Origin: Allomeiothermus silvanus DSM 9946 | GTDB taxonomy: Bacteria > Deinococcota > Deinococci > Deinococcales > Thermaceae | NCBI RefSeq assembly: GCF_000092125.1 | Contig: NC_014212.1 | Coordinates: 392,001 to 456,000, forward strand | DNA: 64,000 nucleotides | Reading direction: 5' to 3' | Shown: positions 7,108 through 10,133 of the stretch, piece after piece | Layout: every line of letters begins with the position of its first letter | Position numbering within the stretch: the stretch's first letter is position 1 | Program-made: the position numbers and the translations under genes | Notes under the pieces: generated by a model | Databases searched by the model: none | Told to the model about the DNA's origin: nothing | Seen by the model: only the letters and a program-made list of their open reading frames with translations

Positions 7108-7173
7108 ATCCTTGAGTGTAGCAAGTGTTGCTATGCCTTACTCACTGGCATCTTCGGTGCGGCCCGGTCGCTA

Positions 7174-7362
7174 GTGAAGCTGCACCCTAGGCCCGGCCAT
7201 GCCGGTACTCAAGTGAAGCCGCACCCGCGGCCCGAGGGGGTTGCCAAAGGCGATACCGGCTCGCACGGGCAAAGCCCGGCCCTAGTGAAGTCGCATAGCG
7301 ACCCGGCGATGGCCGGTACTCAAGTGAAGTCGCATAGCGACCCGGCGATGGCCGGTACTCAA
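7174..7362 (+). repeat. 39-base direct repeats, intergenic
   Basis: Two identical 39-base units lie end to end at 7285-7323 and 7324-7362, each beginning GTGAAGTCGCATAGCGACC and ending GCCGGTACTCAA. A diverged 39-base unit lies at 7174-7212, a partial unit begins at 7213, and one more GCCGGTACTCAA occurs near 7394. The 433-base gap 7108-7540 otherwise shows no gene. The 39-base period keeps frames open, which explains spurious long ORFs across it. Confidence 0.85.
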
Positions 7363-7540
7363 GCGGGCCTAGTGCTTGCCGGTAACCTGGGCCATGCCGG
7401 TACTCAAGCGCGACTACTCCCACAGTCTAACCGCCACGCGGCCCGCAAATGGGCGAATCCGTCTTGAAGCGTTTCCCCGTCCCCGCTAGCCCTGACGGGC
7501 TGAGCCACGAAAGGAGTTCTGTGGACCTAACCCACCCGGT

Positions 7541-7816
7541 TTAGCTGGCAAACTTGCGCAGCAGCACCGCGATCTGTTCGGGTTTTTTGGTATCTCCACG
7601 GGCGATATCGGTGGCGCAGAGGGTGAGAAACTCCCGGAGTATGGTGTTGGAAGCCGCCTCCATGGCTTTTTTGGTGGCGCTCATCTGGGTCAGCACTTCC
7701 TCGCAGGGTCGACCGGCTTCGATCATCTTCTGCAAACCCCGCACCTGACCTTCGATTCGGCGCAGGCGCTTGAGAATGCTCTCCAGGCTCTCCTCGCTGA
7801 GATCCGTGGTGTTCAT
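7541..7816 (-). CDS. CsoR/FrmR-family (DUF156) transcriptional repressor
   Basis: The 91-residue all-helical product matches the metal- or thiol-sensing CsoR family: LKRLRRIEGQVRGLQKMIE, then Cys38 in RPCEEVL, and Cys67 in LTLCATD. In copper-sensing members a His lies four residues before the second Cys; here that position is Phe63. This makes a canonical Cys-His-Cys copper site unlikely and leaves a two-Cys arrangement such as that of persulfide-sensing CstR (inference). The start at 7816 is chosen because the family core begins there; a longer in-frame reading runs antisense-like into dnaX. It lies 25 bases beyond the tau stop codon, so it may be co-transcribed with dnaX. Confidence 0.85.
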   Translation of the reverse strand: MNTTDLSEESLESILKRLRRIEGQVRGLQKMIEAGRPCEEVLTQMSATKKAMEAASNTILREFLTLCATDIARGDTKKPEQIAVLLRKFAS

Positions 7817-7841
7817 GATCCTGAGTCTATCGGAAGCCCGG

Positions 7842-8261
7842 TCATTCATCGCTACCCTCATCACTTTGCGTCGCCCCTTCCGCATCCGGCGCCTTGGGAG
7901 TGTCCTGAACGAGCTTGCGGATACGCCCGCCAAAGGTGCGCAACAGCTTTTGAAAGCGCGGGTCTTCCACCAGGTTTTGTGCGGCGCTGGGGGGGGCTTC
8001 GGCAGCCTCTGGGGAGGTTTCATCATCCGGCCAGGGGGGGTCGTCGCCAGCGGTCGCCTCGGGTTCTGAAGGGCTCGAAGGTGGGGTGGGTTGGACGCTT
8101 TCACGTTCGCGGGGGGAAAGCGGAGCCGTCTGCGGCGGGTTGGGTTGAATCCCGCTGGACGGATCCCCCACGATAGCGGTGGAGATCCTGTCTTCGCCGC
8201 GCTGCGGGGTCGAGCCATTCACCTCACCCTCGCGCAGAGAAATTACGCTTCGGGATTCAAC
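7842..8261 (-). CDS. dnaX: DnaX tau-specific C-terminal extension (reached by slippage)
   Basis: This open segment continues dnaX only if the mRNA has nine (or twelve) A residues at 8262-8271 instead of ten. It then adds 139 residues to the 484 upstream, giving a tau of about 623 residues. The first part is a Pro/Ser/Glu-rich linker. The end (about the last 45 residues) contains the more ordered FQKLLRTFGGRIRKLVQ, the likely polymerase-binding part. It ends with an acidic tail and TGA at 7842. It has no independent ribosome site, so it should be annotated as part of dnaX. Confidence 0.75.
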   Translation of the reverse strand, partial: VESRSVISLREGEVNGSTPQRGEDRISTAIVGDPSSGIQPNPPQTAPLSPRERESVQPTPPSSPSEPEATAGDDPPWPDDETSPEAAEAPPSAAQNLVEDPRFQKLLRTFGGRIRKLVQDTPKAPDAEGATQSDEGSDE

Positions 8262-9714
8262 TTTTTTTTTTCTCCCCTTGCAGCACCAGGCTTACCTCGA
8301 GGTCGCCCATCACCTCGCGCACCGCGGTCTGGATGGCTTCGAGGCTTTTCTGGGCGCTTTGGTAGTGGAAGCTGGCCTTCTCGGGAAATACCAGCACCAG
8401 CTTCTGGCCCTCGAGGTGCGGCAGGGCCTCGCGGAAAAAGGCCCGCTGATTGATCTTGAGGGCCCCTAGCACGTTGCGCCAGGCTTGGGCCAAGTTTATA
8501 GCCATCTGCGGGGAAGGTACGGGCTCTGGAGGGTGCGTTGAGGATGCGGGCAGTGTTTCTGGAGGCTTGCGCCCCGTGTCCGGCGCCCCGCGTCCCACCG
8601 GGTTGAAGTCCGGGAGGCTGGATTTGTTCGGTGTGACGGGCTGGGTGCTCGTTGACGAAGTCTCCGCGACCCCAGGGGCTTGGGCGTGCAAAGCCTGGAA
8701 CGCCGTAAGCACCGCTAACTCCAGCGCCAGCGCATCCGAGCGCTTGAGGAGGCGCTCGAGGCTCTCATCCAGGGCGGTCATGGCCGCTACCAGTTTTTCC
8801 TCGGAGGACTCCAGGCGCGGCCCGGTGCCCAGCCCCATCTTGGCGTAGAGCCCGGCCCGGAAGGCTTCCAATAGCCCCTGAGCCAGTGTCCGTGCAGCGA
8901 AACCTTGGGTGTAGAGGTTTTGCGCGTCGGATAGAGCCTGGCGAATCTGCCCCTGCTCGAGAGCCTCGGCTAGCCCCCACAAGGCCTCCTGGGGGGGTAG
9001 GCCCAGGGCGGCTTCGGTCTGGGCTAGGGTGATGGGGACCTCGAGCGCGAGCAGCCGGTCCAGCAGACTCTCCGCGTCGCGCATGGCTCCATCGGCTATC
9101 CGGGCCACCAGCTGCAAGGCGGCGGGCTCGGCCTCGCGATCCATGGTTTTGAGGATGCGCGAGAGCTTTTGCACGATCTCGGCCTCGGACAATCGCCTGA
9201 AGCGGAAGTGCTGTGTTCTCGAGAGGATGGTAGGGGGCATCCGTTCGGGCTCGGTGGTGGCGAAGATGAAGATGACGTGTTCGGGGGGCTCCTCGAGCGT
9301 CTTTAAGAGTGCGTTGAAGGCGCTCTTGGACATCATGTGGGCCTCGTCAAGGATCACCACTTTGCGGCTGCCCAAGAGGGGGGCTAGCAGGATGCGTTCG
9401 CGCAACTCGCGCACGTCCTCGACGGAGTTGTTGGAGGCTGCGTCGATCTCGAGCACGTCCGGGTGGTTGCCCTCGCGCACCAAACGGCAGCCCTCGCAGA
9501 CCCCGCAGGGCTTGTCGGCCTGGGCTATACAGTTCACCGCCTGGGCGATAAGCCGGGCGCTGCTGGTCTTACCCACCCCCCGCGGCCCCGAGAACAGATA
9601 AGCCTGGGCCAGCCGTCCCGTCCGAATCGCGCTCAGGAGCACTTCCTTGACATGCTCCTGGCCCACCACCTCATCGAAAGTGGTGGGGCGGGCTTGGCGG
9701 TAAAGAGCGCTCAC
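8257..9714 (-). CDS. dnaX: DNA polymerase III clamp-loader subunit, gamma form
   Basis: DnaX is the ATPase motor that loads the sliding clamp. The gamma reading has 485 residues. Walker A is GPRGVGKT (43-50). The zinc module uses Cys62, Cys70, Cys73 and Cys76. DEAHMMS is the Walker B (DExx) region, and ATTEPERMP and LSRTQHF are the sensor 1 and SRC-like regions. The oligomerisation domain spans about 220-360 and a Pro/Ser-rich linker follows. The start is GTG at 9714, which begins with the family N-terminus SALYRQARP. The frame ends two codons after the A run; see the slippage site for tau. Confidence 0.95.
   Translation of the reverse strand: MSALYRQARPTTFDEVVGQEHVKEVLLSAIRTGRLAQAYLFSGPRGVGKTSSARLIAQAVNCIAQADKPCGVCEGCRLVREGNHPDVLEIDAASNNSVEDVRELRERILLAPLLGSRKVVILDEAHMMSKSAFNALLKTLEEPPEHVIFIFATTEPERMPPTILSRTQHFRFRRLSEAEIVQKLSRILKTMDREAEPAALQLVARIADGAMRDAESLLDRLLALEVPITLAQTEAALGLPPQEALWGLAEALEQGQIRQALSDAQNLYTQGFAARTLAQGLLEAFRAGLYAKMGLGTGPRLESSEEKLVAAMTALDESLERLLKRSDALALELAVLTAFQALHAQAPGVAETSSTSTQPVTPNKSSLPDFNPVGRGAPDTGRKPPETLPASSTHPPEPVPSPQMAINLAQAWRNVLGALKINQRAFFREALPHLEGQKLVLVFPEKASFHYQSAQKSLEAIQTAVREVMGDLEVSLVLQGEKKKS
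8262..8271 (-). promoter_or_regulatory. dnaX: dnaX slippage site, run of ten A
   Basis: On the coding strand ten consecutive A follow GGGGAG. In the genomic frame they read Lys-Lys-Lys-Ser-stop, giving gamma. One A fewer opens the tau frame; one A more gives a different short end. Thermus thermophilus dnaX is known to make tau and gamma by RNA polymerase slippage on a nine-A run. Here the genomic frame encodes gamma. A sequencing error in the run length cannot be excluded. Confidence 0.8.
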
Positions 9715-9856
9715 GGGTTATAGCTTAACGCCTTACGCTCAAGGTTGAGCGCCGTAACTTGCTTTTCGGCCGATCCAGGGGTCCGGATGTTGTGTATAGC
9801 CTTATCTATAAGAAACCCATTTGCTCTGTTCTCCTTGTTGGGGCCTCCGCCTGCGG

Positions 9857-9910
9857 CGTATGTTTGCGGCGATAGCCGGGTAGCGTTGTCCAGGGAAGCA
9901 CACCCAGCAG
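9857..9910 (+). repeat. Dispersed intergenic repeat (GCGGCGATAGCCGGGTAGCG family), copy 1
   Basis: A 54-base block recurs at 13102-13154 with a few substitutions and small indels, in the same orientation. Both contain TTGCGGCGATAGCCGGGTAG and end in ACCCAGCAG. Both are non-coding. Confidence 0.8.
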
Positions 9911-9924
9911 TTGCTTTGCCCGAG

Positions 9925-10044
9925 GCGTATTTTCGCTGAGCGAAGCGAGGGGTGGCGTATTTTCGCTGAGCGAAGCGAGGGGTGGCGTATTTTCGCTGAG
10001 CGAAGCGAGGGGTGGCGTATTTTCGCCGAGCGGAGCGAGGGGTA
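9925..10044 (+). repeat. Four tandem 30-base repeats
   Basis: Units start at 9925, 9955, 9985 and 10015. The first three are identical (GCGTATTTTCGCTGAGCGAA and then GCGAGGGGTG); the fourth has two substitutions and a changed last base. There are no unique spacers, so this is not a CRISPR array. The 30-base period keeps all frames open and creates false ORFs on the minus strand. The 419-base gap 9715-10133 contains this array, the dispersed repeat at 9857 and an inverted repeat CGCTCAA-GG-TTGAGCG (9736-9751) upstream of dnaX. Confidence 0.95.
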
Positions 10045-10133
10045 GGGCAAACACGTCTTTCGGGGGCTTGGCTCTTCGGGTGGGGTTCTAACACACCGCA
10101 TGGGGTGGCTGAACTCGGCCACCCGTGGATTAC

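Follow-up and report, generated by a model that had tools for sequence, protein, structure and literature searches.

The question raised by the dnaX gene of Allomeiothermus silvanus DSM 9946 (M. silvanus below) is how the cell obtains tau, the subunit that links the polymerase and the clamp loader in the replicase, when the reading frame written in the genome ends at gamma. The gene lies on the minus strand of the window, by which we mean the whole stretch of 64,000 nucleotides that was analysed, and its features are listed in Table 1. The ORF is identified as DnaX by NCBIfam PRK14963, with 812 bits over residues 2-484 against a cut-off of 601, and the Pfam matches in the gamma ORF are AAA, lid, domain III and DnaX_C, the last of which reaches residue 484. 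Residues 405-480 of the gamma part match chain 4iqj_M (gamma/tau), and for the tau tail alone no solved structure was matched by sequence. The run of ten A is found directly after the DnaX_C match, and the 3' end of the gene, read in the genomic frame, is GAG AAA AAA AAA AGT TGA.

Table 1. Positions, in the window, of the features of the M. silvanus dnaX gene.
Feature	Position	Strand	Remark
dnaX ORF of the genomic frame (gamma)	8257-9714	minus	485 aa; GTG start at 9714, TGA stop at 8259-8257
A10 run, putative slippage site	8262-8271	minus	T10 on the plus strand
TGA ending gamma	8257-8259	minus	in the templated A10 frame
TAA ending the third frame	8243-8245	minus	for A11 or A8 mRNAs, which would give a slightly longer gamma
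tau-specific tail	7842-8261	minus	139 codons and stop; entered from A9 or A12 mRNAs
SD-like GGGGAG	8272-8277	minus	immediately 5' of the run; also in the sister species with tau in frame, hence not tied to the flip

When the length of the run was changed in silico, A10 led to a stop 4 codons from the start of the run (gamma, 485 aa), A11 to a stop after 9 codons and A8 to a stop after 8. With A9 the frame continues through KKK into the tail and gives a tau of 623 aa (481+3+139), and with A12 the same tau is obtained with one extra Lys, 624 aa. This confirms that the templated dnaX product in M. silvanus is gamma, and that tau requires nine or twelve A. The sequence-only reading had claimed as much, with ten A within 8257-8275, gamma in frame and a tau of about 623 residues, and the positions and lengths found here agree with it. 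It had also proposed that the dependence on slippage is reversed compared to Thermus thermophilus; this stands in so far as tau would be wholly dependent on slippage, but there is no clean swap of the two products, since A11 and A8 also give products of gamma size.

Descriptions of the T. thermophilus gene (Larsen et al. 2000, via PMC1088944, PMC5009743 and PMC4320859) report mRNAs with a variable number of A from the homologous A9 run, a share of tau of about one half, and two gamma forms from the remaining two frames. The M. silvanus gene shares with it the homologous site, the poly-A run, the stops that soon follow in each of the two non-tau frames and a tau tail in one frame, and it carries the marks of the Thermus type, that is, a run of at least nine A after DnaX_C, stops 4 and 9 codons on, and a conserved tail. 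What differs is the register: T. thermophilus has A9 and a templated tau, whereas the A10 frame of M. silvanus ends at gamma and tau lies at a net change of -1 or +2. The site probably works in the same way in both organisms.

We consider it likely that the M. silvanus gene uses transcriptional slippage of the T. thermophilus type with the genomic register flipped, so that tau would depend on slipped mRNAs. RNA polymerase would slip on the ten A and produce mRNAs with varying numbers of A; the templated A10 mRNAs, together with A13, would give gamma ending in KKKS, the A11 and A8 mRNAs a slightly longer gamma, and the A9 and A12 mRNAs full-length tau. One A would have been gained in the M. silvanus lineage, and this would be tolerable since slippage already provided all three frames.

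The run itself is rare in the genome. In a pattern search of the 3.72 Mb (3,721,669 bases, of which the chromosome makes up 3,249,394), the dnaX run was the sole run of ten or more A and one of two with nine or more. Independent-base arithmetic predicts about 0.3 runs of ten or more A per genome, and the length alone is not extraordinary. What is beyond chance is the position of the run, with A9 or A10 at the homologous place of dnaX across the readable Thermaceae. The lysine codons before the run are 12 AAG and 5 AAA, so AAG is preferred in the M. silvanus gene. Thermus G028 and G032 have no run of nine or more A in their genomes other than the one in dnaX.

Among 50 Thermaceae genomes searched, the gene and its run were readable together in 44; the remainder have contig ends, gaps or fragments at the site, and in two of these a separate contig carries the run, as A9 and with tau in frame. 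All 44 have A9 or A10 at the homologous site (three of them also with an indel further upstream), and 35 have A9 and a genomic frame that encodes tau. In three, namely M. silvanus and Thermus G032 and G033, the run is A10, gamma is in frame and tau is reached at -1/+2; the dnaX genes of G032 and G033 are identical over 2 kb, and these two were counted as one lineage. A further three, M. granaticius (G005), a Thermaceae MAG (G011) and G009, combine an A9 run with a genomic frame for gamma, tau being at +1/-2; here the run length is kept and the loss of one base just upstream has left gamma templated. Thermus G038, G040 and G046, which are gamma-framed only through an indel further upstream, were set aside; in these the indel lies in the linker and shifts the end of gamma, and may perhaps be an assembly error. 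In the drafts G002, G003, G007 and G014 the gene breaks or holds a run of N in the linker, at about residues 345-400, and this part of dnaX looks hard to assemble.

A sister species of the same genus, G001, is near-identical to M. silvanus around the run but has one A fewer, A9, and tau in frame. Likewise, a single A in the run separates the Thermus A10 lineage from its neighbour G028. Because tau is in frame in most Thermaceae, the gain of one A in the M. silvanus lineage is likelier than a loss in its sister. In the maximum-likelihood tree built from the gamma part, the clean rows cannot be explained with fewer than four frame changes, and M. silvanus and the Thermus A10 lineage are separate events. 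G005 and G011 form a supported clade with a common gamma-framed state across a wide divergence, and the test of whether the three gamma-framed Meiothermus are a single clade gave a p-AU of 0.095. The comparison with relatives that the sequence-only reading had called for thus finds tau in frame in the A9 sister, but gamma in frame is not unique to M. silvanus, as the Thermus A10 and the three Meiothermus A9 cases show.

The tail that would be reached by slippage is conserved. Its C-terminal block in M. silvanus, DPRFQKLLRTFGGRIRKL, belongs to a motif DPRFQKLL.LFGGR.RK that is found, as such or as a near-variant, in the tails of the Meiothermus group, and Thermus has a related block. In genomes with a complete tail the motif is kept regardless of which frame is templated. 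Between M. silvanus and G001, dN/dS is 0.55 in the tail and 0.17 in the gamma part, and in the last 45 codons of the tail the first, second and third codon positions differ at 4, 1 and 8 sites, so that five amino acids are changed. The linker part of the tail is fast-evolving and a control frame gives a similar ratio there, 0.43, and therefore the evidence for constraint comes mainly from the C-terminal block. The conservation of the tail suggests that the long frame is still in use.

This bears on the idea that gamma is the only product of the genomic frame, and that the tail is a separate small ORF starting at the GTG at 8222, or decaying sequence. The genomic frame does terminate at gamma and the sequence GAGGGTGAG is found 5' of this GTG, but the tail is open from the run onward, continues the gamma frame in the sister species, and is aligned to G001 with gaps of whole codons only and a C-terminal block that is almost unchanged, which makes this idea hardly credible. 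An error in the consensus, with a true A9 run, the tau frame templated just as it is in the sister, and no reversal at all, is improbable. The length of the run is taken from a single M. silvanus assembly, homopolymers are the typical error of 454 sequencing, and the sister carries A9. On the other side, the DSM 9946 assembly combines 8.3x Sanger and 16.6x 454 coverage with Illumina polishing, at a stated error of less than 1 in 100,000 (PMC3035272), and gamma-framed states do exist elsewhere: the two agreeing Thermus A10 assemblies and the state common to the divergent G005 and G011 speak against explaining such states in general by sequencing error. It can also be imagined that replication slippage keeps a mixture of A9 and A10 cells at the level of DNA, with tau made mainly by the A9 cells or with cells being of either type by turns. 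The run does toggle between A9 and A10 in two genera, but the finished assembly gives a single run length and most Thermaceae remain at A9, and we find such a mixture quite unlikely.

If the A10 run is real and stable, tau could alternatively be made by the ribosome, by a +1 frameshift on the AAA codons before AGT TGA, aided by the SD-like GGGGAG. A +1 shift on AAA_A does enter the tau frame, and GGGGAG adjoins the run in an arrangement that resembles prfB. The sister species, though, has the same GGGGAG before its A9 run with tau in frame, and the Thermus A10 lineage is without it. As to a stable stem-loop just 3' of the slippery site, as in the dnaX genes of the E. coli type, the 60 nt 3' of the run fold no better than shuffled sequences (z 0.08), and 120 nt across it give a z of -1.5. 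Furthermore, the -1 shift, which is the usual dnaX mechanism, leads into the third frame and a stop, and not to tau. A ribosomal origin of tau in M. silvanus is accordingly very improbable. For the M. granaticius type, GGA AAA AAA AAG TAG, whose tau lies in the -1 frame, slippage and a ribosomal shift would both fit.

Returning to slippage by RNA polymerase, we infer that M. silvanus uses it and that it makes less tau than gamma. With a geometric insertion model, fitted to the 50% tau reported for T. thermophilus, the predicted share of tau is about 19% in the M. silvanus register and 31% in that of M. granaticius; these percentages are arithmetic on an assumed distribution of insertions, calibrated to an in-frame A9 with 50% tau. 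Deletions, or stronger slippage on ten A, would raise tau towards one third. Insertion of a single A is usually reported as the commonest class at A runs, and as this class gives no tau in M. silvanus, it counts against the explanation by slippage. For the T. thermophilus site placed in E. coli, multiple insertions were reported as the predominant class. With the A runs tested in one study, E. coli RNA polymerase was not seen to make deletions (PMC6260861). Tau may thus depend mostly on the rarer +2 class.

The reversed layout of dnaX has precedents in other bacteria (PMC3711429, PMC5009743), and it is also found in other Thermaceae and in nearly all Trueperaceae. The 2013 GeneTack study describes 17 two-ORF dnaX genes that would yield tau only by recoding; nine have 10 A, and all are described as -1 shifts, by one inserted A or by a -1 ribosomal shift (PMC3711429); the idea was repeated in a review in 2016 (PMC5009743). 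As they are described there, these genes share with M. silvanus a gamma in the genomic frame, a stop just past the poly-A and a need of recoding for tau, but their tau is in the -1 frame, whereas that of M. silvanus is at net -1/+2 nucleotides and one additional A leads to a stop. M. silvanus dnaX differs from the reversed genes of 2013 in direction, as a -1 ribosomal shift cannot make its tau, and may nevertheless itself be among the genes of that study. It also differs from the dnaX genes of the E. coli type, with a -1 frameshift on A_AAA_AAG, in that its -1 frame ends soon and is not tau. In Shigella mxiE and Citrobacter rodentium tssM the longer product is likewise made only from slipped transcripts, with an efficiency of about 20-30%, although these are unrelated genes and the long frame of mxiE is reached via one inserted base (PMC1088944, PMC4256274).

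In the Marinithermus-related family and several further families of the order Deinococcales the run is mostly A8 or A9 with tau in frame. Two families (f3 and f4) have a conserved A8 or A9 at the same position of dnaX with tau in frame, and in nearly all of their genes each of the other two frames is closed by a stop after at most about 13 codons; the site is therefore older than the Thermaceae. With few exceptions the Trueperaceae, the family of Truepera radiovictrix, have a reversed dnaX, in which the stop of gamma immediately follows A_AAA_AAG or A_AAA_AAA; the long tail behind it is in the -1 frame and in many cases carries a motif LQ.LFPG. Like M. silvanus, this family of the same order has a templated gamma and a conserved tau tail in another frame, but its A_AAA_AAG/A with tau at -1 suits a -1 ribosomal frameshift, which M. 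silvanus cannot use. Tau throughout the Trueperaceae would need -1 ribosomal frameshifting, and the layout fits that mechanism. From these gene layouts, the reversed arrangement is common near the Thermaceae, but in the direction of the -1 frameshift.

Taken over the family, we lean slightly towards the view that the genomic frame of Thermaceae dnaX drifts almost freely, by at least four one-base flips of two kinds of mutation, with slippage keeping both products, and that tau in M. silvanus would come only from net -1/+2 mRNAs, as a minority. If tau is wholly dependent on slippage in a healthy organism, then slippage is a required step of decoding and not a source of by-products. The two sister species, one A apart, are a natural experiment on the ratio of tau to gamma that the cell needs, and the same pair bears on whether frameshift mutations become almost neutral where there is a slippery run. 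An automatic annotation would read gamma as the whole gene and overlook tau.

Some features of the surroundings of the gene could also be observed. A small protein that by eye resembles the CsoR-type metal-sensing repressors is encoded at 7541-7817 of the window and seems to start about 25 bases past the tau stop at 7842, which fits with tau as the full extent of the upstream gene. Short repeats flank dnaX; downstream, 'agtgaagtcgcatagcgacccggcgatggccggtactc' is repeated at 7160-7420, and upstream, at about 9800-10050, the peptide YATPRFAQRK is repeated in the mechanical ORF 9711-10094.
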